Shown here: one piece after another, positions 8,185-23,246 of the stretch
Numbering within the stretch: position 1 is the first letter of the stretch
Layout of the letters: each line of letters begins with the position of its first letter
DNA from: Halodesulfovibrio aestuarii DSM 17919 = ATCC 29578
GTDB lineage: Bacteria; Desulfobacterota; Desulfovibrionia; Desulfovibrionales; Desulfovibrionaceae
Direction of reading: 5' to 3'
Assembly (NCBI RefSeq): GCF_000384815.1
Contig: NZ_ARQF01000021.1
Location: 620,001-684,000 of the forward strand
DNA length: 64,000 bases
The notes under the pieces: model-generated
Seen by the model: the letters and a program-made list of their open reading frames with translations, nothing else
Told to the model about the DNA's origin: nothing
Databases searched by the model: none
Made by a program: the position numbers and the translations under genes

Positions 8185-8346
8185 AATCCTGTATTTGTAT
8201 AATACCTTATAGCTTAGCATAAACACTGTTGTTACACAGTATCTATGTCTGGTTAACTGTGTGGATACATGCTATTTAGCAATGTAAACCATATAGTTTT
8301 TGTTTGTTCTTTTCAATGTTTTTCAGTAGAGCATTACTTTCTTAAA

Positions 8347-8378
8347 TTGGTGATCTAGTGCCCAGTGTGGCGTATAAT
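8347..8378 (+). promoter_or_regulatory. Candidate metH promoter
   Basis: A perfect TATAAT -10 lies at 8373-8378, 28 bases before the metH start. The best -35-like hexamer (TTGGTG at 8347) is 20 bp away, which is longer than ideal, so the -35 assignment is weak. The intergenic region 8185-8400 shared with the divergent rpoH also holds a small imperfect palindrome (TGCTA TT TAGCA near 8267). No cobalamin or SAM riboswitch fold was recognised. Confidence 0.4.
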
Positions 8379-8406
8379 ACTTTTGGGATATGTTTAGGAG
8401 TTGTTT

Positions 8407-10821
8407 GTGGCGGATTTTCGTAGTGCCTTGTCTTCTGGTGAGTTTTTATTTTTCGATGGTGCAATGGGAACTATGCTGCAAGCACGCGGGTTGACTGCTG
8501 GCGTGAGTCCGGAAGTCTGGTGCATGTCAAACCCTGATGTTTTGCAGGGAGTGCATTGTGATTATGCTCGTGCTGGTGCCAATGTTCTCACTACTAATAC
8601 CTTTGGTGGAACTTCTTTTAAGTTACCGGAGGGTATGGATGTTGTCGGCTTTAACCGGGAAATGGCTGCCGCTGCCAAACGTGCTGCCGTTGAATCTGGC
8701 AGGGACGTTTATGTAGCCGGTAGCGTTGGTCCTACTGGACATTTTCTACGCCCTTTGGGTGATGTTGAATTTGCAACACTCGTTGATTCATATAAAGAAC
8801 AAATTTCCGGCCTTGTAGAAGGCGGTATTGATCTTATTATTTGTGAAACCCACTTTGACGTTGCAGAGTTGCGTGCTGCAGTTGTGGCTGTACGCGAAGT
8901 TTGCGATTTACCTGTTGGGGCCTCAATGACATTCGAAAACGGAATGTCATTAACAGGTTCTTCTCCGGAAGTTTTTGTTGAGACTATGCTTAACATGGGG
9001 GTTGATTTTGTAGCAACAAACTGTAGCGCAGGGCCGGAGCAAATGGTCCCTGTTGTGCAGGAAATGCTCGAATACTCAACGGTACCTGTGTTGGTTATGC
9101 CAAATGCAGGTCTTCCTGAACTTGATGAAAATGGCAATACTGTTTTCCGTCTCGACCCCGATTCTTTTGCAACGCAGACAAAAGTGTTCGCTGAAATGGG
9201 GGCACGCTGTCTTGGTGGCTGTTGCGGCACTTCTCCTGATCACATCGCTGCTTTGGTAGCAGCTGTTGACGGATTGATTGCAAAGCCTGTCCTTCGTGAG
9301 ACAGATTGTTTTTGCATGACGTCTCGGTCTCAGGCTGTACGATTCGGTAAAGAACATCCAGCCCGCATTATTGGCGAACGAATTAACCCGACTGGAAAAA
9401 AGCAATTAATCGCTGAATTACAGAATGGTCAGCTTACTTCTGCTTTGATGTTTGCACAGGAGCAGCTTGACTGTGGAGCACCTGTTCTCGATGTGAACGT
9501 TGGCGCGCCAATGGTGGATGAAACTGTAATATTACCGGATCTGGTAGAAAAACTGGTATCACAGTTCCCTATACCTCTTTCTATCGATTCTTCGAATATG
9601 GATGCAGTTGAAGCTGGGCTTAAAGTGTATCCTGCTTCTGCTCTGGTAAACTCTATCAGCGGTGAGGAAGGGCGCTTGGAGCGTCTGGGGCCATTATGTA
9701 AAAAGTATGGTGCACCGTTTATCATGCTTCCTCTTACAGGCAGCAAGTTGCCTGTTGCCGCAAAAGACCGCATCGCCATTATTGATGCAATGTTGGAAAA
9801 AGTGGATACACTAGGTATTCCTCGTCGCCTTGTTATGGTCGATGTGCTTGCACTTGCTGTTTCTTCTAAGCCGGAAGCCGCGTTGGCGTGTCTTGAAACT
9901 GTTGAATACTGTACAACGCTTGGTCTGCCGACCACTATCGGGCTTTCAAATATTTCTTTTGGGTTACCAGCGAGACCGTTGCTGAATGGCACCTTTTTAG
10001 CCATGGCTGTGTCAAAAGGACTGAGTTCCTGTATCGCTCATCCGGGCAATCCGCAGATTTGTGAAACTCTTGCTGCAGCTGAAGTTTTACTTGGCCGTGA
10101 CGAAAACGCAGCACACTTCATTGCAGGTTTTTCTGGCTGGAAGGCTGGAACAGGAACCGTTGTTGCTGGTGGATCAGTTACAAGCAGTGCTGCTACAACA
10201 GTATTTGAAGCGGTCGTAAAAGGTAGTAAGGATGCTGTCATCGGGCTTATTGAAGCCGAGCTGAAAAAGAAGAAAGAGCCGTTTGAAATTGTAAACGGTA
10301 TGCTTATTCCAGCGATTACTGAAGTCGGGATGAAGTATGAGCGTAAGGAGTATTTCTTACCGCAGCTTCTTCGTTCTGCTGAAACCATGCAGCACGGTTT
10401 TTCTTTGTTGCGTCCTCTGTTGGAAAAAGATGCAGCTGCAACTGTCCGTCCTAAAGTAATAATGGCAACGGTTGAAGGTGACATTCATGATATTGGTAAA
10501 AATATCGTATGCTTAATGCTTGGCAACCATGGCTTTGACGTGGTTGACCTTGGTAAGGATGTTAAAGCAGAAACCATTGTTGATGCGGCTGCAGAGCATG
10601 GCGCTAAAATTATTGGACTTTCTGCCTTGATGACGACGACAATGGTTCGTATGGAAGACACTGTTTCACTGCTGAAAGAACGTGGCATGGATGATGTAAA
10701 GGTAATGATTGGCGGGGCGGTTGTAACTGCTGCTTTTGCTGATACTATCGGCGCTCATGGCTACTCTGAAGATGCAGTGTCTGCTGTGCGAGTTGCTCAA
10801 TCTTTCATAGAGGAGAAGTAG
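8407..10821 (+). CDS. metH: Cobalamin-dependent methionine synthase, short form lacking the activation domain
   Basis: Transfers a methyl group from methyltetrahydrofolate to homocysteine through cobalamin. Domains in order: homocysteine-binding domain (residues 1 to about 290) with zinc-ligand Cys in ATNCSAGP and GGCCGT; pterin-binding domain from about 318 (IIGERINPTGKK); B12 cap and B12-binding domain with the DxHxxG motif in EGDIHDIGKNIV at about 691. It ends right after the B12 domain: at 804 residues it lacks the C-terminal SAM-binding reactivation domain of the roughly 1,230-residue E. coli enzyme, so reactivation would need a separate protein. I start at GTG 8407, six bases after AGGAG; a TTG at 8401 is too close. 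It is the first gene of a six-gene operon. Confidence 0.95.
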   Translation: MADFRSALSSGEFLFFDGAMGTMLQARGLTAGVSPEVWCMSNPDVLQGVHCDYARAGANVLTTNTFGGTSFKLPEGMDVVGFNREMAAAAKRAAVESGRDVYVAGSVGPTGHFLRPLGDVEFATLVDSYKEQISGLVEGGIDLIICETHFDVAELRAAVVAVREVCDLPVGASMTFENGMSLTGSSPEVFVETMLNMGVDFVATNCSAGPEQMVPVVQEMLEYSTVPVLVMPNAGLPELDENGNTVFRLDPDSFATQTKVFAEMGARCLGGCCGTSPDHIAALVAAVDGLIAKPVLRETDCFCMTSRSQAVRFGKEHPARIIGERINPTGKKQLIAELQNGQLTSALMFAQEQLDCGAPVLDVNVGAPMVDETVILPDLVEKLVSQFPIPLSIDSSNMDAVEAGLKVYPASALVNSISGEEGRLERLGPLCKKYGAPFIMLPLTGSKLPVAAKDRIAIIDAMLEKVDTLGIPRRLVMVDVLALAVSSKPEAALACLETVEYCTTLGLPTTIGLSNISFGLPARPLLNGTFLAMAVSKGLSSCIAHPGNPQICETLAAAEVLLGRDENAAHFIAGFSGWKAGTGTVVAGGSVTSSAATTVFEAVVKGSKDAVIGLIEAELKKKKEPFEIVNGMLIPAITEVGMKYERKEYFLPQLLRSAETMQHGFSLLRPLLEKDAAATVRPKVIMATVEGDIHDIGKNIVCLMLGNHGFDVVDLGKDVKAETIVDAAAEHGAKIIGLSALMTTTMVRMEDTVSLLKERGMDDVKVMIGGAVVTAAFADTIGAHGYSEDAVSAVRVAQSFIEEK

Positions 10822-10826
10822 TCAGC

Positions 10827-11318
10827 ATGAAATCTATTAAATCCATAATGCGTATCGCGTTCTTGTGCACGGCATTTGCCGTTGTTCTTGGAGTACAGTC
10901 TGCTGTGGCAGAACCTCTAAAAAAAGCGGATACCGCAGAAGTTATTAAGCTCATAAACAGCGGCAAGGGCAAAGTTACCGTTGTGAATTTTTGGGCTTCA
11001 TGGTGTCCGCCATGCCGTGAAGAACTGCCGGATTTAAAAAAGACTCGTGCTGCATTTTCCGGTGACGACTTGTTGTTGCTCGGCGTTTCTGTGGATGAAA
11101 ACGCTGCGGCTGCTGAAAAGGCTGTAAAAGAATTCGGGCTGAATTACCCTGTGGTTCTTGCCGAATCTGATGTTTATGAGACGTTTGGAATTAAGTCTAT
11201 TCCACGCCTTCTTATATACAATACAAAGGGAAAGCTTCTTGTTGATCACGTAGGTCCTGTTAGCTTCAAGGATTTAAAAGTGCTCATCGATCAAGTCTTA
11301 AAGGGAAAACAGAAATAA
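10827..11318 (+). CDS. Periplasmic TlpA/ResA-like thioredoxin
   Basis: A 163-residue thiol-disulfide oxidoreductase. It has a signal peptide (MRIAFLCTAFAVVLGVQSAVA, cleavage near residue 28) and a thioredoxin fold with the active-site WCPPC (Cys60 and Cys63), then the TlpA/ResA-type VSVDENAAAAEKAV and cis-Pro loop SIPRLLIY. Family members reduce periplasmic disulfides, often for cytochrome c maturation or to protect exported proteins. It lies six bases after metH, and its stop overlaps the ATG of the next gene (TAATG), so it is translationally coupled. A specific target is not indicated by the context. Confidence 0.88.
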   Translation: MKSIKSIMRIAFLCTAFAVVLGVQSAVAEPLKKADTAEVIKLINSGKGKVTVVNFWASWCPPCREELPDLKKTRAAFSGDDLLLLGVSVDENAAAAEKAVKEFGLNYPVVLAESDVYETFGIKSIPRLLIYNTKGKLLVDHVGPVSFKDLKVLIDQVLKGKQK

Positions 11319-11809
11319 TGTCTGAGCCGTTTATTCGCAAAGCACAGATGCGGGACGTGAAGGTGATTCATAACCTGCTGTTAACGTGCTCTAGTCAAGG
11401 TGTCCTTCTTCCTCGCTCATTAACTCAATTGTACAATTGCCTGCGAGAATTTAATGTCTTAGATCCTGGTGACGGGGGAGATATTATCGGGTGTTGTGCT
11501 CTTTCTATTGTTTGGGAAGGGTTAGCAGAAATCCGTTCCCTTATTGTAGACGAAAAAGCGCGTCGTGGTGGGTACGGTCGTGAGCTTGTAGATGAGTGTA
11601 TAGACGAAGCTCGCAGATTAGGTATTTACAAAATCTTCACTCTCACCTATCAAGATGCCTTTTTTCAGAAGCTAGGCTTTGTTGAAGTGTCGAAGGAAGT
11701 ACTGCCTCAAAAGATTTGGGCAGATTGTGTTAATTGTCCTAAATTCCCAGAGTGTGACGAAATCGCCATGCTCTTAGAGATACAACCAGAGAATTCTGGA
11801 GAGAGTTAA
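11318..11809 (+). CDS. argA: Short-form N-acetylglutamate synthase (GNAT acetyltransferase)
   Basis: A 163-residue GNAT-family acetyltransferase. It begins IRKAQMRDVKVIHNLL, has the acetyl-CoA binding loop RRGGYGRELVDE (about 86-97) after LAEIRSLIV, and ends with a Cys-containing motif CVNCPKFPECDEIAM. That tail is characteristic of the short, kinase-domain-free N-acetylglutamate synthases that perform the first step of arginine synthesis in many delta-proteobacteria. The call is by family resemblance; another small GNAT activity cannot be excluded. Its start and stop both overlap neighbours (TAATG), so it is tightly coupled with the thioredoxin gene and hpt. Confidence 0.78.
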   Translation: MSEPFIRKAQMRDVKVIHNLLLTCSSQGVLLPRSLTQLYNCLREFNVLDPGDGGDIIGCCALSIVWEGLAEIRSLIVDEKARRGGYGRELVDECIDEARRLGIYKIFTLTYQDAFFQKLGFVEVSKEVLPQKIWADCVNCPKFPECDEIAMLLEIQPENSGES

Positions 11810-12339
11810 TGGAAATCAAGGAACTTACAGTAGTTTATAGCGAAGAACAGATTCAGGAACGTGTAAAAGAGCTTGCAGAGCAGATCAATAATGACTTCGA
11901 GGGAAAAGACCTTGTTGTCGTTTGTGTGCTTAAAGGTGCTTTCATGTTTTTCTCTGATTTATTAAAGCATCTCACCGTTAAGCCCGAAATAGACTTTGTG
12001 CGTTGCGCAAGCTATGGCAACAGCACAAACAGTTCTAAAACAGTTTCTTTCACTAAAGACCTCGAAGTTTCTATTAAGGGAAAACATGTTCTCATCGTGG
12101 AAGACATTGTTGACACTGGTCATACTATTGCCTTCCTCATGTCTCAGCTTAAAGCTCGTGGTGCAGATTCTCTTAAACTTGCTTCTATTGTAGAAAAAGT
12201 TGAGCGTCGCGAAATTGATGTCGTTGTTGATTACCCGGGTTTTACTCTGGAAAAAGGGTTTATTGTCGGGTATGGAATGGACTACGCTGAAAAATATCGT
12301 GAGTTGGGAGCTATTTACGAAGCTACTGTAATCGAATAA
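11809..12339 (+). CDS. hpt: Hypoxanthine phosphoribosyltransferase
   Basis: Purine salvage enzyme converting hypoxanthine (and often guanine) with PRPP to the nucleotide. The 176-residue protein has the PRPP-binding signature VLIVEDIVDTGHT at about residues 93-105, where the two acidic residues bind the ribose. It also has LKGAFMFFSDLL near the N-terminus and GFIVGYGMDYAEKYREL near the C-terminus, both typical of bacterial HPRTs. Its ATG overlaps the stop of argA. It is followed after 30 bases by the zinc-ribbon gene in the same operon. Confidence 0.95.
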   Translation: MEIKELTVVYSEEQIQERVKELAEQINNDFEGKDLVVVCVLKGAFMFFSDLLKHLTVKPEIDFVRCASYGNSTNSSKTVSFTKDLEVSIKGKHVLIVEDIVDTGHTIAFLMSQLKARGADSLKLASIVEKVERREIDVVVDYPGFTLEKGFIVGYGMDYAEKYRELGAIYEATVIE

Positions 12340-12369
12340 CGGTTTTTGAAAACGTAATTGGGAAGCGTT

Positions 12370-13182
12370 ATGCACATTACCTGTCCAAATTGTTCTACCA
12401 AGTTTAGTCTTCCAGATGAAATGTTCAAAGACGGAGCACAAGCTCGTTGCACAGTGTGCGATGAAGTCTTTCCTCTTATTCAACCTGCTGAACATAATGT
12501 TGAAGTAGAATCTCAAGAAGAAATATCTTTCTCTGAATCGCCAGAAATGGAAGAAACCATTGCTCCAGATGGCAACATGGATGCACTTATTGGAGAGGAA
12601 GGTACATTTGGGCTTGGCGAACCTAAGAAAAAGAAAAAATCCGGTAAGGGTTGTCTTGTCTTTTTCTTGATTCTTCTTCTACTGGGTGGAGCTTGTGCTG
12701 GTGCGTGGTATTTTGCACCAGAACTTGTTAACCGGTTCCTGCCTATGAAGGAAAAAGCCCAGAGTGGCCCTGTAACCGTTGCGAATGATGTTTCCCGCAT
12801 TTCACTCAAAAACATTAGCCAATACTACATTACAAATGAGAAAATTGGTCAGATTTTTGTTATCGAAGGTGATGCAGAAAACCGTTTTGGTGTTCCTAAG
12901 GAACTCATTAAGGTGGAGGCAACATTGTACGATGCAAATAATGTAGCGATTGTCGCTAAGCAACAGCTTGCTGGTTCCAGTGTTTCTTTGTTCCAGCTTC
13001 AGGTTTTAGCTAAAGAAGAGCTTGCTGATGCGCTGAATAACAAAGTTGAGATCTTGACTAACAACACCAACGTGATGCCTACAAAATCTGTTCATTTTAT
13101 GGTGGTTTTTTATGATCCGCCTAAGGGTGTTGCAGAGTTTGGGGTGAAGGTTGTTGAAGCTAAGAATCCTCCTGTTCAGTAG
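12370..13182 (+). CDS. Zinc-ribbon membrane protein (MJ0042 ribbon plus DUF3426-like domain)
   Basis: A 270-residue protein of unknown function. An N-terminal MJ0042-type zinc ribbon (CPNC ... CTVC within the first 30 residues) is followed by an acidic linker, a basic stretch KKKKKSGKGC, one membrane segment (LVFFLILLLLGGACAGAWYF, about residues 98-117) and a C-terminal domain of about 140 residues predicted outside the cytoplasm that resembles DUF3426. I start at ATG 12370, nine bases downstream of a GGAAG; an in-frame TTG at 12358 is less likely. It lies between hpt and radA, with seven bases before the radA GTG. Confidence 0.8.
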   Translation: MHITCPNCSTKFSLPDEMFKDGAQARCTVCDEVFPLIQPAEHNVEVESQEEISFSESPEMEETIAPDGNMDALIGEEGTFGLGEPKKKKKSGKGCLVFFLILLLLGGACAGAWYFAPELVNRFLPMKEKAQSGPVTVANDVSRISLKNISQYYITNEKIGQIFVIEGDAENRFGVPKELIKVEATLYDANNVAIVAKQQLAGSSVSLFQLQVLAKEELADALNNKVEILTNNTNVMPTKSVHFMVVFYDPPKGVAEFGVKVVEAKNPPVQ

Positions 13183-13188
13183 TATACA

Positions 13189-14538
13189 GTGAAGACTCGC
13201 GAAATATATATTTGCTCCGCTTGTGGTGCTTCTTCAGCACAATGGCGTGGGCAATGTCCGAAATGTAAGGAGTGGAACACTCTTGAGGCCCGCACTGTTT
13301 CGAAAGAGCAGGCCAAAAGGCGTGGTTCCACTCCTTTAGTCTCTTCAGGGTCTGCCATTATTCCTCTTCGTGATGTGAAAGAAGATGACCATACCCCTTT
13401 TGGGACGGGCATGGCTGAGCTGGATCGCATCCTCGGTTCCGGTCTTGTGCCGGGAGCGGCTTTGTTGATCGGTGGCGAGCCGGGAATTGGTAAATCAACG
13501 TTGCTGCTGCAAGTGGCTGGGGGTGTTGCTGAGTCCGGTAAACAGGTGTTGTATGTTTCCGGTGAAGAGTCATTGGGGCAACTTCGCGCCCGTGCAGCCC
13601 GCCTTGACGCTCTGGACGAAAATCTTACCGCGATTTCTACTTCTAAGTTAGATGATGTTCTACCAGTGCTGGAATCATCGAACCCGCCGGACTTGCTGAT
13701 TGTTGATTCAGTCCAGACTATTTCATCGCTTCGGGTGGAAGGACTGCCCGGTAGTGTAACGCAGGTTCGTGCGGTATCGATTGAACTTATTGAAACATGC
13801 AAGCGGGTAGGCATTTCTTTGTTGCTTGTGGGACATGTTACAAAAGATGGGCAGCTTGCGGGGCCAAAACTCCTTGAGCATATGGTAGATACTGTAATCT
13901 CCATTGAGGGTGATCGCAGGCAGATGTACCGCATGATGCGTGTCATAAAAAACCGTTTTGGTCCTAATCAGGAACTTATTGTTTTTGAAATGGTGCAGGA
14001 CGGTATGCAGATTGTGGATGACCCTTCAACTTATTTTCTTGGTGCGCGCGACCCGCAGCTATCCGGCACAGCTGTTGTTATGGCTGTTGACGGGCAGCGT
14101 CCATTTGCCGTTGAAGTTCAGGCTCTGGTGAGTCGCAGCTATCTTTCTATCCCACGCCGTACTGGACTCGGTTTTGATGTGAATAGACTGCATCTGTTGC
14201 TTGCGGTGCTGGAGAAACGTCTGCGTCTAAATTTTGCAGAGGTCGATATATATGCGAAAGTTGGCGGCGGGATGAAGCTGCAAGACCCGGGGATGGATCT
14301 TGCTTTGATTGCTGCTGTGCTTTCTTCTTTTTATGATCTTCCACTTCCTTCTAAGTCGGTATTATGGGGTGAGGTAGATTTGAACGGTCAGGTACGTCCT
14401 GTGGCGTCACATGATATCAGACAGCGTCAGGCCGCTAGACTTGGGTACCGTCCTATATTATGTCCTGAATCAGAGCCGGAAACAGGACTGCGCACGATTG
14501 TTCAGTTGCAGGAAGCTCTTTTTAGTAAAAATGGGTAG
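13189..14538 (+). CDS. radA: DNA repair protein RadA
   Basis: RadA is a RecA-like DnaB-type helicase that helps branch migration and processing of recombination intermediates. The 449-residue protein has the N-terminal C4 zinc finger (CSACG ... CPKC), Walker A GEPGIGKST at about 96-104, Walker B LLIVDSVQT, the RadA-specific KNRFG motif at 254-258, and a C-terminal Lon-protease-like domain ending after the DIRQRQAARLGY segment. Start is a GTG at 13189 following the previous gene by six bases. The gene is the last of the metH operon; a terminator follows. Confidence 0.96.
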   Translation: MKTREIYICSACGASSAQWRGQCPKCKEWNTLEARTVSKEQAKRRGSTPLVSSGSAIIPLRDVKEDDHTPFGTGMAELDRILGSGLVPGAALLIGGEPGIGKSTLLLQVAGGVAESGKQVLYVSGEESLGQLRARAARLDALDENLTAISTSKLDDVLPVLESSNPPDLLIVDSVQTISSLRVEGLPGSVTQVRAVSIELIETCKRVGISLLLVGHVTKDGQLAGPKLLEHMVDTVISIEGDRRQMYRMMRVIKNRFGPNQELIVFEMVQDGMQIVDDPSTYFLGARDPQLSGTAVVMAVDGQRPFAVEVQALVSRSYLSIPRRTGLGFDVNRLHLLLAVLEKRLRLNFAEVDIYAKVGGGMKLQDPGMDLALIAAVLSSFYDLPLPSKSVLWGEVDLNGQVRPVASHDIRQRQAARLGYRPILCPESEPETGLRTIVQLQEALFSKNG

Positions 14539-14586
14539 CAGCGTACTCGTATACGTTGTCGTGTAGGGACGTTAAAAAGCAGCAGT

Positions 14587-14622
14587 ACACCAAAATTTCC
14601 TTGTGGGTTTTGGTGTTTTTTT
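14587..14622 (+). terminator. Factor-independent terminator after radA
   Basis: A 9-bp perfect stem (ACACCAAAA / TTTTGGTGT) with a 12-base loop is followed by a run of T. It closes the metH-radA operon. Confidence 0.85.
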
Positions 14623-14697
14623 GCCGCCTTTTTTTCGTGGGTATGAGTGTGAAAAGCGTATTGTGTTACTTCTCTTAGAGAATAAAGGCAAAATGTA

Positions 14698-16659
14698 ATG
14701 TTAGATGACACATGTGTGCAGCGTGGCAGCGTTGCTGATTACCAAAATCATTCAGGGCCGGCTCTTCATTCAGCTCAGGCCTCTTTTGATGCTCAACTGT
14801 ACACAATGTCTTATGTGCGACTTAGATTGCAATCTGATCTTGCAAGTGAAACTCCGGCTTCTATTTTTGCCGCACAGGAAGAACAGGGAACAGTTTTTTA
14901 TCTGCCAGAATTAACATTTCTGCCTACGCTCGATGAGTATACAGTCGGTGAGCGCTACCTGCAGTACCATGTTTTAGTAATTTCGCCGTTAGCATGCAGC
15001 GCTGAACCTAGCGGTTCAGTATTTGATTCTCTTGGCTCTGCTGAATTTGCCAAGCTGGGCACTACAGGGGATGATTGCTGCAAAAATGTTACGGATGTCT
15101 TTTCTCAATATTTTTTATCTGCAATAGGCCGTGGCCAGGCCGATTTCGCTGAAATATCAGAGGAGTTGCGAGAACTGTTGCAGCCTTTGTTTGTTGCACA
15201 GGATGTTTTGCAATCTTTCGATGTGCTTCCCAATTCGTCCTGTCAGTCTGAAGACGTTTATCGATCTGATGGTACCGTCCTACTACCGGTAGATGATGCT
15301 TCTGAGAAGGTTCCCGTTTCAACCGGCATGCGGGAAGAGGCTTTGGGCGTCGTTTCTGAACCGGAGGAGCATAACTCCGCGGTACCTATGTCCGATTTAG
15401 AATGTTCTAATGCACCTCGGGTTACGGACACCATGGACGTGGTTCCTTCCAGCATCTTGAACGAAAGTCGCTCCGGCTATCTTGCGAGTGTTTGCGACCA
15501 ACGTATGCCTTTTGTGGAAAGTGGGTCTCTTCGTGATTCGGATCCTTCTTTATTTGCTGCGGGCAGTAAAAAGTCTTTCGAAGATAGCGCAGTGTTGTCA
15601 GCCTGCAGTTCAGTAAAACCTTTTTCATGTAGAAAAAGGTCCTGCCTTACCCCTCTGCAATCAACCCAGGATGAAGATAAGCTGGATCGATTAATCTCCC
15701 ATGTAAGCGAATTGTCTCGGATACAGTCAAACTTATACGACTATGCGCTTGCGCATGACGATGATCGTTTGCGTAGTATGGCAGACGAATTTGACCGGCT
15801 ATACTCAGTACTGCGTGACTCAGCGTTAGAGTTACGTATGGTTTCTCTGAATCCGCTGCTTTTCTCTGTTAAGGATTGGGTCGAGGACTTTGTTCAATCT
15901 ATGGATAAGCAGTTATTATTCACGTTAGAGGGGGGGGATGTACAAGTTGATGCTGTTATTGCAGAACAAGTAACTGATGCGCTTGCTACATATTTTTCTA
16001 CAGCTATCCTGCCTTTCTTTGATGATGAAATTCTTTCTATTTCGCTTTCAGTTGAGTATTCTGGCACAGATATTCTGTTAGTTATGGAACATTCTGAATG
16101 CGCAATTCAGGGTTCAGAAGAAAACGTGATTATTTCAGAAGCATTACTTCGGTTACAGGCAGAAATCTTAGCGCTTCATGGAGGACTGGCTGTTGAGTGC
16201 GGTGATCAGAGCCTTCGTATCATAAAAGTTTGTTTCCCTGTGACGCAGGCAATGATTGAGGGGCTGGTCGTACAGTGCGGCGAAGAGCAATACATTGTTC
16301 CTATGAATCAGGTTGCTGAGTGCATTGATTGCAGTCCACGCATGGGGGTTGAAATTAAAGAGGATAAGGTCGTACTTGGTGGTGAGACTGTTCCTTATGT
16401 TCGTCTTCGTGAGTATGTAGATATTGATGGTAAGACAGAGCACGAGCAGTGTGTTGTGATTCAGTCTCTTTCAGGCACGTTCGGTTTAATTGTCGATGGT
16501 GTCGTGGGGGAACTGCAGGCGGCCATAAAGCCCGTAGGTGCTCTCTATAAGCATGTCGAAATGATTTCAGGCGTATCGGTGAAGTCAGATGGTATTCCGT
16601 GCCTTGTGTTGAACCTTCAACATCTGCAAATGGTTGCGGATTGTTTGGTTATAACTTGA
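14698..16659 (+). CDS. CheA-like protein lacking HPt and kinase motifs, with C-terminal CheW domain
   Basis: A 653-residue protein that follows the CheA domain plan but appears catalytically dead. Residues about 37-95 resemble the CheA P2-type domain (YVRLRLQSDL ... LPTLDEYTVGERYLQYHV). No His-phosphotransfer P1 domain precedes it. A long Ser/Asp-rich linker (about 175-325) leads to a P3-like dimerisation helix pair (KLDRLISHVSELSRIQ ... LELRMVSLNPLLFSV, about 328-395). The next part aligns with P4 but the N-box (HLVRNAIDHG-type) and the glycine-rich ATP boxes are missing. The C-terminus from about 517 is a CheW-like P5 domain (IEGLVVQCGEEQYIVPM, then FGLIVDGVVGE). It stands alone between radA and the sulfite reductase, with terminators on both sides and no other che gene nearby. 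Confidence 0.75.
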   Translation: MLDDTCVQRGSVADYQNHSGPALHSAQASFDAQLYTMSYVRLRLQSDLASETPASIFAAQEEQGTVFYLPELTFLPTLDEYTVGERYLQYHVLVISPLACSAEPSGSVFDSLGSAEFAKLGTTGDDCCKNVTDVFSQYFLSAIGRGQADFAEISEELRELLQPLFVAQDVLQSFDVLPNSSCQSEDVYRSDGTVLLPVDDASEKVPVSTGMREEALGVVSEPEEHNSAVPMSDLECSNAPRVTDTMDVVPSSILNESRSGYLASVCDQRMPFVESGSLRDSDPSLFAAGSKKSFEDSAVLSACSSVKPFSCRKRSCLTPLQSTQDEDKLDRLISHVSELSRIQSNLYDYALAHDDDRLRSMADEFDRLYSVLRDSALELRMVSLNPLLFSVKDWVEDFVQSMDKQLLFTLEGGDVQVDAVIAEQVTDALATYFSTAILPFFDDEILSISLSVEYSGTDILLVMEHSECAIQGSEENVIISEALLRLQAEILALHGGLAVECGDQSLRIIKVCFPVTQAMIEGLVVQCGEEQYIVPMNQVAECIDCSPRMGVEIKEDKVVLGGETVPYVRLREYVDIDGKTEHEQCVVIQSLSGTFGLIVDGVVGELQAAIKPVGALYKHVEMISGVSVKSDGIPCLVLNLQHLQMVADCLVIT

Positions 16660-16731
16660 GAAAATATATAATTGAGCAATCAAACAACTTTGTAAAAAAT
16701 TATTTTTTCATTTAATTTGGTGAAATTGTTT

Positions 16732-16768
16732 AAAAAGACAAATAGTTATCTATTTGTCTTTTTGTTTT
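16732..16768 (+). terminator. Terminator after the CheA-like gene
   Basis: A 12-bp perfect stem (AAAGACAAATAG / CTATTTGTCTTT) with a TTAT loop and a T-rich tail, 73 bases after the CheA-like stop codon. Confidence 0.85.
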
Positions 16769-16999
16769 ATCTAAGAATGTTAAAGTGATGTTTACATAGT
16801 GATGTGCTAACTTATTAAAAGATAAGTATATTTTATGTACTTAATCTAAGTGTTAATCGCTTAACCAAGCACAAAGTTTAGTAAGCATGGACAGGAGCGC
16901 AGCTGTAGTGTAAAAATCCACAAAATTAAAAGCAAAAGTTCTTTTAAAGCACACCCATAATTATATTATAATAAAAATAACTATTAAGAAGGGCATGAT
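16769..16999 (+). promoter_or_regulatory. Leader region of the sulfite reductase gene with palindromes and a -10 box
   Basis: An AT-rich non-coding stretch upstream of the sulfite reductase. It has a TATAAT at 16967-16972 (about 28 bases before the ATG, -35 weak), the palindrome GTTAA TCGC TTAAC at 16852-16865, and a longer imperfect inverted repeat from about 16820 to 16846 (GATAAGTA ... TACTTAATC). The palindromes look like possible regulator-binding sites. No small ORF with a ribosome-binding site was seen. AAGAAGG at 16985 is the ribosome-binding site. Confidence 0.4.
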
Positions 17000-17650
17000 A
17001 TGACTACTCCAGATGGTGCAATTTTACAGCGCGACAAAAAAACTTATGCAATCGTTCCACGTACCCCGGCAGGTATGCTTACTCCAGATGTTCTTGAGAC
17101 TATCGCATACGTTTGTCGTAAGTACGAAGTGCCAATTATCAAAATTACTTCCGGCCAGCGCATGGCCCTTGTCGGCATGAAAGAAGAGCAGGTTGAACCA
17201 ATTTGGGAAGAGCTTAAATGGAAAGTGGGCCGTGCCACTGAACTTTGTGTTCATTACGTTCAGGCCTGCCCTGGTACCGCAGTATGTAAACTCGGCGTGC
17301 AAGATTCTCTTGGTTTCGGTCTTGAAATTGAAGAAGCTATGTACGGCAAGCCGTTTCCAGCAAAAGTTAAGTTCGGTATTTCCGGCTGTCCAATGTGCTG
17401 TGGCGAAAGTCGTGTTCGTGACATTGGTCTTATTGGCACGAAAAAAGGTTGGGAAGTTATTGTAGGCGGTAACTCTGGTCCTCGTCCTCGTATAGGTGAC
17501 ACTCTTGCAAAAGACCTTACTCAGGAAGAAGCTCAGGCTCTTGTTGAAAAATTCCTCGACTACTATCGTGAAAACTCAGGTAAACGAGTACGTATATCTA
17601 AGTTTGTAGAAAAAGAGGGCATTGATGCAATTAAAGAAGCTATTTTATAG
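17000..17650 (+). CDS. Assimilatory-type siroheme sulfite reductase (small, monomeric)
   Basis: A 216-residue nitrite/sulfite reductase of the minimal low-spin type described from Desulfovibrio, which reduces sulfite to sulfide using one siroheme coupled to a [4Fe-4S] cluster. The cluster ligands are visible as Cys90-x5-Cys96 (CPGTAVC) and Cys130-x3-Cys134 (CPMCC). An N-terminal ferredoxin-like half (residues about 15-70) and KFGISGC before the second Cys pair are typical. It has no fused ferredoxin domain and is about one third the size of E. coli CysI. It is monocistronic, with its own leader and a strong terminator. Whether it works in assimilation, detoxification or otherwise is not settled by the sequence. 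Confidence 0.93.
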   Translation: MTTPDGAILQRDKKTYAIVPRTPAGMLTPDVLETIAYVCRKYEVPIIKITSGQRMALVGMKEEQVEPIWEELKWKVGRATELCVHYVQACPGTAVCKLGVQDSLGFGLEIEEAMYGKPFPAKVKFGISGCPMCCGESRVRDIGLIGTKKGWEVIVGGNSGPRPRIGDTLAKDLTQEEAQALVEKFLDYYRENSGKRVRISKFVEKEGIDAIKEAIL

Positions 17651-17664
17651 TTTTTAGTAAAAAT

Positions 17665-17712
17665 AAAAAGCTCAAAGATATGCAAGTGTTGCATGTCTTT
17701 GAGCTTTTTTTT
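17665..17712. terminator. Bidirectional terminator between sulfite reductase and DUF190 genes
   Basis: Long inverted repeat (AAAAAGCTCAAAGA ... TCTTTGAGCTTTTT with an inner TGCAA/TTGCA) ending in T-runs on both strands. It serves the sulfite reductase on the plus strand and the convergent DUF190 gene on the minus strand, whose stop is at 17711. Confidence 0.9.
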
Positions 17713-18052
17713 ATTCAGATTTTGACGCAGGTAATATTACTGTTACGTCTTCTTGTAAAATGAGTGCATCAGCAGCGAATTGTGCTAATTTAGGAATAAA
17801 GCTTTGAATGTTCTCTTTTGTGTCGATAATTTGTATAAGAAGAGGAAGGTCTTCAGAAATACGCAACACACCCATAGAGTGTATTTTTTTGTCTCTGCCA
17901 TAGCTGTACAAACCTCGGAAAACAGAAACACCTGCAAGGTCTGAATTTTTTGCTTGTTCTATAATAACTTCGTAAAGACTTTGACCATTGAACTGATCTT
18001 TTTCACTAATATAAATACTTAGTCGCTGTGTGGGGCCTTGTAAGTTATGCAT
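17711..18052 (-). CDS. DUF190 family protein
   Basis: A 113-residue protein of the DUF190 family, often found beside crcB/fluC fluoride-channel genes. The pattern begins with RLSIYISEKDQFNGQSLYEVIIEQAK, followed by AGVSVFRGLYSYG and the conserved LRISEDLPLLIQIID segment; this is a PII-like ferredoxin-fold layout. The biochemical role of the family is not well known; some members may bind small ligands. It lies nine bases after the fluoride channel gene and is probably co-transcribed with it, supporting a fluoride or ion-homeostasis link by context. Confidence 0.85.
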   Translation of the reverse strand: MHNLQGPTQRLSIYISEKDQFNGQSLYEVIIEQAKNSDLAGVSVFRGLYSYGRDKKIHSMGVLRISEDLPLLIQIIDTKENIQSFIPKLAQFAADALILQEDVTVILPASKSE

Positions 18053-18061
18053 TGTATTCTC

Positions 18062-18436
18062 CTACAAAAGTCTACCAAGAGTGAGTCCGAATTTAAGAAG
18101 GATAACTCCAGTGATAATTTGTCCCGCAACATTTAAGAGAAAGTACGGCCATTGTGCAGAGTCTAGCAGGGCTGCTGATTCAAAAATGAATGTTGAGAAG
18201 GTAGTAAAGGCACCCATGAAGCCAGTAAGCACTATGACACGAAAGTCTGGAGAAAGGGAGAGTCTGTCTTGTGCGTATGCCCAGATAAGACCGAACAGGA
18301 AGCACCCGAAAATGTTGACTAGATATGTGCCTATAGGGAAGCTAATGTTTATTGCGCGTTGAAATACCCCTGAAAGTAAATAACGGCTCAAACTGCCCAG
18401 CCCGCCGGCACAAAACAGTAGGATGATTTTTGTCAT
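18062..18436 (-). CDS. crcB: Fluoride channel CrcB/Fluc
   Basis: A 124-residue membrane protein of the Fluc family, which exports fluoride as an antiparallel dimer. Four hydrophobic segments are visible. The hallmark residues are in GSLSRYLL near the N-terminus, [17 protein letters not shown] (TM2, with the conserved Asn) and [16 protein letters not shown] (TM3 break with the Phe-box and Na+-site backbone). Only 44 bases separate it from the divergent CYTH gene, and no fluoride riboswitch fold was seen there. It appears as a single crcB copy with a DUF190 partner. Confidence 0.93.
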
Positions 18437-18480
18437 GCTGTTTCCTTGGTTATTATAACAAAAAATCTGGAAGTTTCTAT

Positions 18481-19080
18481 ATGGCGTTCGAAATTGAACT
18501 GAAATTTATACATATTAACCCCTCATTGCTGCGCGAAAAACTATCAGCACTCGGTGGTTTGTGTAAAGGAAGACATCTGGAGCGCAACGTTGTTTTCGAC
18601 TTGCCTGAACGGGATATGAAAGAAGCAGGCAAGCTTTTACGCTTACGGACAAAACAGTGGAAAGATCGACATGAGACGGTTCTAACATTGAAACTTCCGC
18701 CAAAAGGTGACATGCCTGTAGATGTAAAGATATACGATGAGCGTGAAACTAAAGTTGAGAGCTTTGACGGAACGTATGCTATCCTTGAAGGGCTTGGGTA
18801 TGATGGAGCCTTTCGGTATGATAAGATGCGTGAAGAATGGGCACTTGATAATGTTGAGATTTGTCTTGATGAACTTTCATTTGATACGGTTGTTGAGTTG
18901 GAAGGCGAGCGGGATGATATTTTTGCGGTAGCGGACAAGCTTTGTCTACCGCGTGAAAATGCATCTACTGCCACCTATCATGAATTACACAGCTCCTACC
19001 GTGAAAGGGAAAATCTTGCTCCGCAGGATAGTTTTTATTTTACCGATGATGAATGCCAGAGGTTGCTGGAAAAATTGTAG
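18481..19080 (+). CDS. CYTH domain protein (CyaB / thiamine triphosphatase family)
   Basis: A 199-residue protein with the CYTH signature ExExK at residues 4-8 (EIELK), then RLR(T/K)-type basic residues around [12 protein letters not shown] and acidic residues ([23 protein letters not shown]) that line the tunnel binding triphosphate and divalent metal. The family includes inorganic triphosphatases, thiamine triphosphatases and class IV adenylate cyclases; the sequence alone does not separate these. I start at ATG 18481 because the motif must lie near the N-terminus; a longer frame start at 18430 overlaps crcB. It is divergent from crcB and precedes clpS. Confidence 0.88.
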
Positions 19081-19117
19081 ATACGGCAGCAAAGGAGCGA
19101 TTAATCCTGTGCGTAGG

Positions 19118-19146
19118 TTGTCACTACCTTAATCTGGCATTAACAA
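19118..19146 (+). promoter_or_regulatory. Candidate clpS promoter
   Basis: TTGTCA (19118-19123) and TAACAA (19141-19146) are 17 bp apart, about 23 bases before the clpS ATG. Fits a sigma-70-type promoter; the -10 is imperfect. Confidence 0.4.
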
Positions 19147-19168
19147 TATTACATGTAATGGATTCATT

Positions 19169-19480
19169 ATGGCTGAACATCATAGACCTGACTTTGATTC
19201 TGACATTCTGCTTGAAGAAGACCTGAAAGAGCCTCGCAAGTTTCGAGTGCTCATGCATAATGATGACTATACCACAATGGATTTTGTCATTTTAATTCTT
19301 GTTGAAGTGTTTCGAAAAACTACGCAGCAGGCAACACAGATTATGCTGAGTATTCATGAAAAAGGTGCCGGAGAATGCGGAGTGTACACCGCAGAAGTTG
19401 CAGAAACGAAAATTGCAATAGTCCGTGCCCGCGCAAAAGAAGCTGGCTATCCTCTCAAATGTTCAATGGAAGAGGTATAA
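19169..19480 (+). CDS. clpS: ATP-dependent Clp protease adaptor ClpS
   Basis: ClpS delivers N-degron substrates to ClpAP. The 103-residue protein has the family core: an unstructured N-terminal tail, then KFRVLMHNDDYTTMDFVI (about residues 26-43), where the Asn-Asp-Asp residues bind the substrate alpha-amino group, and later IHEKGAGECGVYTAEVAETK. It is followed by clpA after one base and then by aat, so the recognition adaptor, the unfoldase and the transferase that creates N-degrons are in one operon. Confidence 0.95.
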   Translation: MAEHHRPDFDSDILLEEDLKEPRKFRVLMHNDDYTTMDFVILILVEVFRKTTQQATQIMLSIHEKGAGECGVYTAEVAETKIAIVRARAKEAGYPLKCSMEEV

Positions 19481-19481
19481 T

Positions 19482-21758
19482 ATGCTGAGTATACATTTAG
19501 AACAAGCGATTGCTAACGCTGTTCACGAAGTACAGGAACGAAATCATGAATTTTTAACCCTTGAGCATCTTCTTTACGGTATCGCTCAGGATGACCAAGG
19601 GTACTATATTCTAGAGCAGGCCGGTGCAGATGTGCCGTCTCTGTTAAAACGTGTAGAGGTATTTTTTGCCTCGCATCTTGAACCGTTACCGGAAGATGTA
19701 CCTACAGAGATTATCCGGACTATTAGTGTCCAGAGAGTGTTGCAGCGCGCGGCCATGCAGATGCAGTCATCCGGTCGTGATGTTGTAGAAATTGGTGATG
19801 TGCTCGCAGCTATCTTTGAAGAAGAAGATTCCTATGCCCTTTATTTCCTGCGTCATATGGAAGTCACTCGTTTAGATATTCTGGAAGTCGTTTCTCATGA
19901 GATGGACGGAAGTGAGTGGGTAATGATGGATGAAGCGGGCATGAACGAATCCCGTACAGACTCGCTTACCGAATTCTGCGTTAATCTTACCGAGAAAGCT
20001 AAGCAAGGTGGAATTGATCCGCTTATTGGCCGGAAGACAGAGCTTGAACGTACTATTCAGGTTCTTGCCCGCCGCCGCAAGAACAATCCGTTGTTTGTAG
20101 GTGAACCTGGGGTAGGTAAAACTGCGCTTGCTGAAGGGCTTGCTGTCCGTATTGTTGACGGTAATGTTCCTGAAAGTTTCCATGATGCACATATTTATGC
20201 ATTGGACATGGGGCTGTTGCTTGCCGGCACTAAGTATCGCGGTGATTTTGAGTCTCGCCTTAAAGGGGTGATTCAGGATCTTAAAAAGATAGATGGTGCA
20301 ATTCTCTTTATTGATGAAATCCATACTATTGTAGGCGCGGGTGCGACAACAGGCGGCTCAATGGATGCTTCCAATATCCTTAAACCTGTTCTTGCCAGTG
20401 GTGATATTAAATGTATTGGGTCAACGACCTATGAAGAGTACAAAAACCATTTTGAAAAAGACCGTGCCTTGTCCCGTCGTTTCCAGAAAATTGATGTTCC
20501 GGAACCTACTATTGAAGAGTGCATGTCTATTTTGAAAGGTCTTAAGCCATATTATGAAGAGCATCATGGTGTGCGTTATAGCCAGCCTGCAATTAAAGCA
20601 TCGGTTGAGCTTTCCGCACGGTATATAACTGAGCGTTTTCTTCCTGATAAAGCTATTGATGTAATCGATGAAGCCGGTGCAGCATATCGCCTGCATGGTA
20701 CACACCGTAAGAGTAATACTATTACGGCAAACGATATAGAGCGTGTTGTAGCAAAGATGGCGCGTATTCCAGAACAGCGCGTCTCTACAGGTGACAAGCA
20801 GAAGTTGTCCGGTTTGGTTGATGATTTAAAAGCACAGGTTTATGGGCAGGATAAGGCTGTTGATATCGTAGGAAAAGCCATTCTACGCAGTCGTGCAGGT
20901 TTGGGTAGAGATGATCGCCCCACTGGCTCATTCCTTTTTTATGGTCCTACAGGTGTGGGTAAAACAGAGCTTGCCCGTCAGCTCGCAACACAGCTTGGTG
21001 TGCAGTTCCTTAGATACGACATGAGTGAGTACATGGAGAAGCACGCGGTTTCCCGTCTTATCGGGGCACCTCCGGGCTATGTTGGTTTTGATCAGGGTGG
21101 GCAGCTCACAGATGCTGTTCGTAAACATCCGCACGCTGTAGTTCTGCTTGATGAAATTGAAAAAGCGCATCCAGATATCTTTAATATTCTTTTGCAGGTT
21201 ATGGATTATGCGACCTTGACAGATAACTCCGGTCGTAAAGCAGACTTCCGCAATATTATTCTTATCATGACTTCCAACGCCGGTGCCCGTGAAATGGTAG
21301 CAAAATCCATTGGGTTTGGCACACAGGGGAAAGTTGATGTGGCGCAGCGCGGCTTGAAAGCTGTAGAACGTACTTTTAGTCCGGAATTTAGAAACCGCCT
21401 TGATGCAATGGTTCCATTCCACGGCCTTGGTGAGTCCATTATGGAACGCATTGTAGATAAGTTTGTGGCGGAACTGGAAGACATGCTTAAATCTAAGCGG
21501 GTGCAGATTGAATTAACAGAGGCAGCGCGGAAACGTCTTGCAGCTAAAGGCTATGATGATGCTTTTGGTGCACGACCAATGCGTAGAGTAGTCAGAACAG
21601 GGCTTGAAGATGCCATCGCACATGAAGTTCTTTTTGGTGACTTGCAAAAAGGCGGTATAGCTACTGTTGATGTTAAGGATGTAAAAGCACCACAGGATGC
21701 AGAAGATCTTGGCTTGAGTCTGACATTCCTGCCGTTGAGTTCTAAAAAGAAAAAGTAA
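19482..21758 (+). CDS. clpA: ATP-dependent Clp protease ATP-binding subunit ClpA
   Basis: A 758-residue AAA+ unfoldase that pairs with ClpP and is modulated by ClpS. It has the N-terminal repeat domain ([14 protein letters not shown] ... LEHLLYGIA), a first AAA module with Walker [10 protein letters not shown] near residue 208, a second with Walker [10 protein letters not shown] near 490, and no long middle coiled coil, which separates ClpA from ClpB. I start at ATG 19482, one base after the clpS stop with AGAGG upstream; a longer frame opening within clpS is not used. clpP is not in the window. Confidence 0.95.
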
Positions 21759-21801
21759 CTGCGGTTGTGTGAGGCTTAGGCAACGTTTTAAAATAGCAAT
21801 T

Positions 21802-22506
21802 ATGACAGTTTATTTACTTTCAGATGATGATGTCGCCTTCCCCAACCCTGCATTAGCAGATGGGGAAGGACTTCTTGCCGTTGGCGGTGATTTATGTATG
21901 GAGCGTCTTATCAATGGATATGCCAACGGTATTTTTCCTTGGTATGATGATGACTCTCCTATCCTTTGGTGGTCTCCGGATCCACGTTTTGTCCTTTATC
22001 CTAAAGAATTGCATATTCCACGCAGTTTACGTCGAGTTATAAATTCGCGTAAATTTACTATCAAAATTGATACTGCCTTTGAAAAAGTTATTCGGAATTG
22101 TGCTACGTCACAGCGCCCTGATGAAGAAGGCACATGGATTGTAGAAGAGATGATACAAGCTTACTGCGAGTTGAACGATGCAGGGTTAGCACACTCTATC
22201 GAAACATGGCGTGATGATGAACTTGTAGGTGGACTTTATGGAGTCTCTTTGGGGAAGGTCTTTTATGGTGAGTCCATGTTTTTCAAGGAGTCAGACGCGT
22301 CAAAAGTTGCTCTTGTATGGCTCGCCCGATTGCTTGTTGCGGCGGGGTTTGAGATGATAGACTGTCAACAGGTGACAGACAATCTTGAACGTTTTGGTGC
22401 AGTCGCTATCTCACGCGAAGAGTTCTTGAAGAAGCTTCATAACGCACTGGAAGCACAGACTATTCAAGGGCAATGGATGTTTCCTGAAGAGTTTTTTCCG
22501 TTATAA
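21802..22506 (+). CDS. aat: Leucyl/phenylalanyl-tRNA-protein transferase
   Basis: Aat adds Leu or Phe from charged tRNA to proteins with N-terminal Arg or Lys, making ClpS-recognised N-degrons. The 234-residue protein has the family segments FPNPALADGEGLLAVGGDL, YANGIFPWYDDDSPILWWSPDPR and the later FYGESMFFKESDASKVALVWL, which forms the catalytic and tRNA-binding surface. The start is taken at ATG 21802 (MTVYLLSDD); a GTG 33 bases upstream would add a tail with no family match. Placement after clpS-clpA points to a dedicated N-degron operon, closed by a terminator. Confidence 0.95.
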   Translation: MTVYLLSDDDVAFPNPALADGEGLLAVGGDLCMERLINGYANGIFPWYDDDSPILWWSPDPRFVLYPKELHIPRSLRRVINSRKFTIKIDTAFEKVIRNCATSQRPDEEGTWIVEEMIQAYCELNDAGLAHSIETWRDDELVGGLYGVSLGKVFYGESMFFKESDASKVALVWLARLLVAAGFEMIDCQQVTDNLERFGAVAISREEFLKKLHNALEAQTIQGQWMFPEEFFPL

Positions 22507-22509
22507 TTT

Positions 22510-22543
22510 AAAAAATCCCTGTTCGTTAGAACAGGGATTTTTT
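22510..22543 (+). terminator. Terminator after aat
   Basis: Perfect 15-bp inverted repeat (AAAAAATCCCTGTTC / GAACAGGGATTTTTT) with a GTTA loop. It ends the clpS-clpA-aat transcript and, being symmetric, may also act on the convergent gene whose stop is at 22572. Confidence 0.9.
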
Positions 22544-22571
22544 AACATACACGGAAGCTTGATGTTTAAGG

Positions 22572-23063
22572 CTAAATGACATTCGGCTCATGCTGGTCCA
22601 GATCGTAGAACCCTCTAAAATTAAACGGTAAAGGGTATTCATGCACTTTATCGAACTTAATGAAGCCCATGCTTTTTCCTTCAGGTATGGAGGCAAGAGG
22701 CATGGTGCCTTGCGGAACAGGAAAAGAGAGTGGAGCTGCGAAAATACCTTCAAGTCTGGTCTGGTATCGCTCTTCAAGATAACTAATAATCATATCCCGT
22801 TCTTCTTTGGTAAAACTTTCGAGTATCATCTCTTTGGTGTCCTCAAGTGTACCGGTAAGGTCGGGGCTAAGTTTCTGTTTTTCATAATCTGTATCTATGC
22901 AGCGAAGTAGATTTGTGTCTTGTCGTTCTTCTTCAGGAATGTCAGAACGGAACAGATGTACTTCTACATGCTTGCGTCCCTTGAAGCTACGTATGACTAT
23001 TGTCATGGCGTAGATTCTATCAATGGGGGTGTTACCGGGGGCAGAGACAATTTCTTTCTGCAT
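22572..23063 (-). CDS. Hypothetical protein (163 aa)
   Basis: Not recognised. From ATG 23061-23063 (MQKEIVSAPGN) the protein has 163 residues, with a very strong GGAGGGA ribosome-binding site; a longer frame start at 23123 is less likely. It has no signal peptide or membrane segment. The N-terminal half looks like an alpha/beta fold (AMTIVIRSFKGRKHVEVHLFR), and the middle is charged and helical (EDTKEMILESFTKEERDMIISYLEERY). It stands alone on the minus strand between aat and uvrB, convergent with aat and divergent from uvrB. Confidence 0.7.
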   Translation of the reverse strand: MQKEIVSAPGNTPIDRIYAMTIVIRSFKGRKHVEVHLFRSDIPEEERQDTNLLRCIDTDYEKQKLSPDLTGTLEDTKEMILESFTKEERDMIISYLEERYQTRLEGIFAAPLSFPVPQGTMPLASIPEGKSMGFIKFDKVHEYPLPFNFRGFYDLDQHEPNVI

Positions 23064-23246
23064 ATGGTTCCCTCCGCGGAAACTGATATTATCTATATTT
23101 CTGCATGTTATGTGATTGTTCACGTAGCTGCAACAGAGTGATTAATTTTTTGTTTTACTATAGTTCCGGTAGTGTTAAGTCGAAAGCTATGTGAGCATCC
23201 GTCTACCATTTCGTGATATTGTCGTTGAATATAATAAGAGGAAGTA

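Follow-up and report, generated by a model that had tools for sequence, protein, structure and literature searches.

The 64,000-nucleotide stretch of DNA analysed here (the window) belongs to a Halodesulfovibrio genome of 3.55 Mb (G000). At positions 14698-16659 of its forward strand lies an intact open reading frame with an ATG start, encoding a kinase-dead CheA derivative of 653 amino acids in which a P2-like domain, a disordered linker, P3, P4 and P5 follow one another; intact orthologues are present in five further genomes of the genus. The gene is flanked on the left by radA (13189-14538, +) and on the right by a small gene resembling siroheme sulfite/nitrite reductases (17000-17650, +). 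A likely ribosome-binding site, AATAAAGG, is found at 14681-14688 (+), and its letters AAAGG are conserved in the aligned upstream regions of all six genes. Between radA and the gene is a hairpin followed by a run of T (14587-14616, +) that resembles an intrinsic terminator and is conserved at all six orthologous loci. A terminator scan of 4 kb gave 7 such sites, against 3.8 +/- 2.1 in shuffled sequences, so that the evidence for this upstream terminator is its conservation. A further terminator-like hairpin 3' of the gene (16731-16764, +) is present at each of the five loci whose sequence extends that far, the letters of the stem varying by species when compared by eye. As the ribosome-binding site and the terminators on both sides are conserved, the gene is probably transcribed on its own.

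This form of the protein (607-653 amino acids) was found in six of ten Halodesulfovibrio genomes (G000, G001, G002, G007, G008 and G009), and a full-length CheA of about 700 amino acids fills the same slot in the other four (G003-G006). The slot is bordered on the left by radA in all six genomes of the clade and in all four congeners with full CheA, and on the right by the sulfite-reductase-like gene in the four congeners and in five of the six, the contig of G008 stopping just past the gene. Because one and the same radA slot holds either this form or a full-length CheA within the genus, the gene is an in-place derivative of a full CheA. Among five CheA loci from other genera or families (L048-L052), the neighbourhood was partly shared in three and unshared in two. 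A gene for a zinc-ribbon/FxLYD-like protein adjoins radA in the window (12358-13182), and at locus L044 a second, similar FxLYD-like gene was seen on the far side of radA, bordering the che cluster that is lost here. A profile search of the order Desulfovibrionales at E<=1e-40 matched 6 of 348 genomes, all members of the Halodesulfovibrio clade; three candidates were scored per genome for many of the 348, and weaker or hidden relatives are possible. The distribution is thus narrow and clade-specific, which limits the reach of the observation. A mobile or recently acquired gene was also considered and rejected, the plasmid search having returned partial CheA matches, with 0 of 47 records reaching 80% query coverage.

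A Pfam search with the window protein at E<=10 returned CheW alone (residues 521-643, 61.9 bits against a cut-off of 23.5), and the CheW family (PF01584) matched in all six orthologues. Against PDB chains, phmmer aligned residues 325-439 with CheA P3 and the start of P4 (i-E 0.0017) and residues 490-641 with P5 (4.7e-13). The P3- and P5-like parts of the original prediction were in this way recovered by phmmer and in the structural model, and the CheW-like part by Pfam. The P3 dimerisation helices occupy residues 325-395 (15670-15882, +) and P5 residues 514-653 (16237-16656, +). Pfam H-kinase_dim did not match the window protein or its orthologues, though P3 was detected by phmmer and in the model. 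Of the residues that are invariant in nine full-length homologues, all six proteins keep 13 of 35 in P3 and 24 of 64 in P5, and since only this portion of P5 is retained its partners may have changed. Four P5 cysteines, at residues 527, 542, 545 and 585 (window 16276-16278, 16321-16323, 16330-16332 and 16450-16452), are invariant in the six. None of the 22 full-length CheA rows of the alignment has a cysteine at 527, 545 or 585, indicating that three were gained in the six. These cysteines are a possible candidate for a metal or redox site, bearing in mind that invariance is common in P5 and affects about two thirds of its columns.

Residues 37-97 (14806-14988, +) form a P2-like domain. With hhalign, residues 38-109 aligned to the P2 of full-length homologues (E 6.8e-5, probability 64), a moderate match, and 2 of 7 invariant P2 residues are kept in all six proteins; the Pfam P2 family matched neither the window protein nor the full-length slot CheAs scanned. 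A separate model of residues 30-165 showed a beta-alpha-beta-beta-alpha-beta arrangement, with the element order of a ferredoxin-like fold, and two helices (mean pLDDT 70.6). Fold searches with this model gave no match at E<=0.001 in one search and a best Z of 6.6 in a second, uninformative beyond the ferredoxin-like shape, and no CheA P2 structure was among the matches listed. The P2-like part proposed from sequence thus has a counterpart in the homologues' P2 region, and its assignment as a P2 domain is tentative, no solved P2 structure being among the listed matches. Residues 98-165 (14989-15192, +) appear to be a helical remnant in place of an ancestral MshEN-type c-di-GMP domain, as judged from the model, residue counts and evolutionary rate. 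They are followed by a fast-evolving linker, residues 166-324 (15193-15669, +), which is predicted to be disordered (pLDDT mostly <50).

The remaining region, residues 396-513 (15883-16236, +), is a pseudo-P4, that is, a GHKL core without the N box, the G1, F and G2 motifs and the lid. By hhalign, residues 397-472 aligned to the start of the homologues' P4 (E 3.1e-5). The N box HCLRNSLDHG of full-length CheA reads TYFSTAILPF in the window protein, the position of its Asn being occupied by T, A, S, D, I and S across the six. The G1 motif DDGAGL is replaced, the F motif FAPGFST is deleted in all six, and the G2 motif GRGVGMDVV is deleted in all six except for one aligned edge residue. Pfam HATPase_c did not match the window protein or its orthologues, and 8 of the 96 P4 residues invariant in the nine full-length homologues are kept in all six.

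The HPt domain is also gone. Pfam found none in the window protein (E<=10) or in its five orthologues, hhalign of residues 1-320 against the P1 of full-length homologues gave no match, and neither did tblastn of P1 against window positions 13000-18000 in all frames. Of 45 P1 residues invariant in the nine homologues, 0 are kept in all six orthologues and 2 in at least four, and 38 are deleted in all. The original prediction that the protein lacks an HPt domain and the N and G boxes was thus upheld, and neither an intact ATP pocket nor an HPt was found. Against the NCBIfam CheA equivalogs the window protein scored 68.8 (cut-off 950) and 66.9 (cut-off 793), but, as the full-length slot CheAs also lie below both cut-offs, these scores carry no weight by themselves. 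The protein is homologous to CheA yet is no CheA kinase, since two defining features, the HPt and the ATP motifs of P4, were looked for and neither was found. With both gone, the sequence excludes catalysis and phosphotransfer. A frameshifted full kinase was rejected because no P1 or P4 fragment occurs in any frame of window 13000-18000, separate domain queries returning a match for P5 only, and because the losses are common to the six members of the clade; the homologues in the slot of the four congeners are nevertheless full kinases. A split CheA receiving its HPt in trans was considered as well (the genome has seven HPt matches, two of them within its other CheA) and was rejected, since without the ATP site it would not be a kinase.

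The structural model of the whole protein had a mean pLDDT of 55.5, with ten-residue means of 58-86 over residues 321-650, and was built on a shallow alignment of 6 rows. It arranges P3, a lidless GHKL P4 and P5 as in CheA. The closest folds were 4jpb_A for P5 (Z 17.6, rmsd 1.9 over 125 residues), 1i59_A for the P4 core, which is not as long as a complete P4 (Z 16.0, rmsd 2.4 over 125 of 180 residues), and 4xiv_B for P3-P4 (Z 15.8, rmsd 3.1 over 183). In this model the pseudo-P4 keeps the GHKL fold though the pocket motifs are gone.

The full-length CheA of the four congeners resembles the window protein in its genomic slot, its first residues (MLDD...Q), P2, P3, P5 and domain order, and differs from it in having an HPt, an MshEN-type c-di-GMP motif, an intact ATP site and CheY, CheR, CheB and receptor-like neighbours. 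Two of the slot CheAs were scanned with Pfam, and each matched HPt, H-kinase_dim, HATPase_c and CheW. By gene order, this CheA would be the counterpart of Desulfovibrio vulgaris CheA1 (DVU1594). D. vulgaris has three cheA genes, and motility halos were lost in cheA3 mutants but not in cheA1 or cheA2 mutants, the role of CheA1 being left open in the part of that report available (PMC3944678). The MshEN-type motif (NF053729), which lies between P2 and P3, scored over the cut-off in eight of nine full-length CheAs (L044-L052), L050 scoring 35 against 38. This suggests a CheA that responds to c-di-GMP in Desulfovibrionaceae and relatives; the occurrence of MshEN domains together with CheA has already been published (PMC5013675). 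None of the 16 residues of this region that are invariant in the nine homologues is kept in all six, and the window form has, by these motif and residue counts, lost the domain.

The partners of the kinase have left the slot too. The slot of G005 additionally encodes a receptor-like protein (MCPsignal), CheY, CheR and CheB. Strong matches to the receptor-like protein (E<=7e-164) are confined to the four congeners; in the six the best are weak and partial (7e-9 to 8e-6). A tblastn search of the six loci found no remnant of the slot CheY, CheR, CheB or receptor, matches at E 0.25 and 0.53 being noise. Genome-wide, the six have 1-2 CheB domains against 3-4 in the four full-CheA congeners, 1-3 CheR domains against 4-5, and 6 CheW domains against 10. 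A CheW-domain protein in an open frame of 580-645 amino acids was also seen in the four congeners (G003:C26:14509, G004:C10:254288, G005:C1:2325168 and G006:C12:215897), with no match listed in the six.

A chemosensory system remains elsewhere. The window's genome has one other CheA, of 962 amino acids, with two HPt domains, HATPase_c and CheW. It belongs to the remaining che cluster (L053:2985-12127; G000:C21, approximately 188-197 kb), along with CheB, a HEAT-repeat protein, CheR, a ParA-like protein, a 317-amino-acid CheW-domain protein and CheY. The same genome encodes 22 receptors, which are possible hosts for the pseudo-CheA. A chemoreceptor signalling domain was noted in the window itself, at 62678-63232 within a 522-amino-acid open frame. 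Family matches for CheZ, CheC and CheX are present in all ten genomes of the genus.

Selection was assessed from dN/dS fits to 6 of 15 orthologue pairs for the whole gene and 4 of 15 by region; dS was saturated or high in several fits, including several regional ones, and the omega values are therefore approximate. Whole-gene omega was 0.086-0.164 in five of the six pairs, the sixth (G000-L042) being saturated with a dS of 66, and the likelihood-ratio statistic against omega=1 was 204-360 in all six. By region, in four pairs each, omega was 0.003-0.108 for P2, 0.003-0.036 for P3, 0.013-0.144 for pseudo-P4, 0.030-0.034 for P5 and 0.016-0.233 for residues 98-165. The linker gave 0.14-0.43 in three pairs and a value at the bound, not different from 1, in the fourth (L041-L042). 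For the N-terminal 36 residues constraint was not evident (omega 0.32-2.9, indistinguishable from 1 in most pairs, with a statistic of at most 4.4). As controls, radA gave 0.011-0.024, indicating that this neighbour evolves far more slowly than the pseudo-CheA gene, the sulfite-reductase gene 0.013-0.047 and the zinc-ribbon gene 0.05-0.10. P2, P3, the dead P4 and P5 are each under purifying selection, in agreement with the original view of a maintained rather than a decaying gene.

The P5 sequences of the six were 77% identical among themselves and 36% identical to those of the four congeners' CheA; the latter were 90% identical to one another and 66% identical to CheA of other genera. Most of the change therefore occurred on the stem of the six and was followed by constraint, and fast evolution on a stem followed by slow evolution is the pattern of changed function rather than decay. 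Two trees, one of P5 (28 rows) and one of P3 and P5 together (29 rows), united the six (100/100) in a position not adjoining the congeners' CheA, and midpoint rooting of the second placed them outside all other rows. The six cannot be placed in these trees because their stem is very long, and descent in place thus rests on synteny. From the 41 rows collected for the P5 tree, 12 duplicate or overly short rows were removed, and a length filter took out another. The P5 tree contained four long branches that were wrong-frame ORFs; it is superseded by the P3+P5 tree, which used 13 of 24 loci from other genomes (nine duplicates of slot rows and two short rows were omitted).

We consider the chances about even (probability approximately 0.5) that the protein works, without catalysis, as a component of the core units in the remaining chemoreceptor arrays. 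The parts that remain make a scaffold or array-organising role plausible. The gene goes back to a full chemotaxis kinase, HPt-P2-MshEN-P3-P4-P5, in the radA slot, whose receptor, CheY, CheR and CheB partners were deleted there in the ancestor of the six Halodesulfovibrio species. The HPt, the c-di-GMP domain and the ATP site disappeared, and P2, P3, a P4 core with a predicted fold and P5 were retained. P3 may form a homodimer, P5, to judge from this domain itself, could sit where the P5 of CheA does, on CheW and the tips of receptors, and P4, being inert, would be a structural filler. Occupancy of CheA positions by a non-kinase might set kinase density or array geometry and so affect signalling, and P2 on its long linker could hold a response regulator close to the array. 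A broader proposal, which we offer tentatively and with considerable doubt, is a class of pseudo-CheA in which a kinase hollowed in place after loss of its pathway becomes a P3-dimeric, inert member of another array whose P2 reads or holds a response regulator. Such a protein would be a sensor or tether rather than a phosphate donor. Redox or metal control could further come from the three P5 cysteines newly fixed in the six.

That the gene is a slowly decaying pseudogene, open by happenstance, might be argued from the loss of the catalytic parts and of all slot partners and from the fast linker, but this is extremely improbable. The reading frame of the original prediction is kept open in all five orthologues, which differ from the window gene at 33-44% of nucleotides and whose gaps are codon multiples. 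In a control with random substitution at 10% divergence, copies acquired 6.9 stops on average and 0 of 500 were free of stops. Chance openness is therefore excluded, as five diverged orthologues keep the frame and the control never does; the low omega of P2, P3, P4 and P5 and the conserved expression signals argue in the same direction. It is also unlikely that P5 and the dimer, after a change of partners, serve a scaffold outside chemotaxis and unrelated to receptor arrays. P5 and P3 diverged strongly along the stem and were constrained later, the dedicated receptor and modification enzymes were lost, and three invariant P5 cysteines were gained, all of which is consistent with such a role, but P5 still scores above the cut-off of the CheW family.

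Two further alternatives keep the protein in chemotaxis and give it a response regulator to act upon. It is possible, though doubtful, that the protein is an array- or receptor-tethered reader or sink, in which P2, with P3 and pseudo-P4, would bind CheY, perhaps depending on its phosphorylation, and P5 would only position the whole. P2 is as constrained here as in full CheAs (omega 0.003-0.108 against 0.030-0.077) although the HPt, the reason for a P2 in a kinase, is gone, and the pseudokinase DivL, which binds DivK~P, provides a precedent in the part of the source available (PMC4211667). However, the slot CheY is lost from the six, so that a different regulator would have to dock, and the profile match behind the P2 assignment is a moderate one. 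A phosphatase for CheY~P, by analogy with the central region of Rhodobacter sphaeroides CheA3 acting on CheY6~P, appears very unlikely: CheA3 likewise combines a degenerate kinase domain with a P5 and dephosphorylates CheY6~P, according to the portions of two reports (PMC6829392, PMC10782961), but with CheZ and CheX family genes in every genome of the genus no phosphatase is obviously missing.

Whichever of these roles applies, the locus is a natural domain-deletion experiment in which P2, P3, an inert P4 core and P5 survive selection without catalysis. It makes testable which functions P2, P3 and P5 have in an array, or towards a response regulator, beyond phosphotransfer, and close relatives with a full kinase in the same slot are natural controls. 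Surveys based on domains would miss such pseudo-CheAs, because Pfam detects CheW alone.

In the open-licence literature searched, neither this protein nor a CheA lacking the HPt together with the ATP site is described. ParP, which has an AIF domain, is an array protein without kinase function; its C-terminal domain is similar to the P5 of CheA and attaches to receptor tips, an example of a P5-like domain bringing a non-kinase into core units. It differs in having a ParC-binding N-terminus, and the part of the source available mentions no P2, P3 or P4 in it (PMC5706961). FrzB, a divergent coupling protein that modifies arrays, consists, in the available text, of CheW only and is without CheA domains (PMC6952110). 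The window protein does not belong to the ParP type: no ParA-like gene was seen by eye among ORFs of at least 100 amino acids in window 8000-24000, and one is present, with the 317-amino-acid CheW-domain protein, in the other che cluster. DivL is a membrane sensor kinase of another family, with a cell-cycle role, and is not known to carry a CheW domain. It resembles the window protein in that a histidine-kinase fold is kept for binding and not for catalysis, as described in the available part of the source (PMC4211667). In a survey of 13,673 CheA sequences, HPt, P3, P4 and P5 are called core to all CheA in the section available (PMC10782961). The statement in the original prediction that no family of this form is described agrees with that survey, but has to be qualified by a partial parallel, R. 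sphaeroides CheA3, which keeps its HPt. As far as these sources describe it, CheA3 too derives from CheA, having a P5 next to degenerate P2, P3 and P4 domains, and is without kinase activity of its own (PMC10782961, PMC6829392). CheA3 has a phosphorylatable HPt, a partner kinase, CheA4, and phosphatase activity in the same accounts (PMC10782961, PMC6829392), whereas the window protein lacks an HPt and its slot contains no partner kinase; the window protein is thus not of the CheA3 type, for which an HPt is required. None of ParP, DivL and CheA3 equals the architecture of the window protein, and its closest described parallel is R. sphaeroides CheA3.
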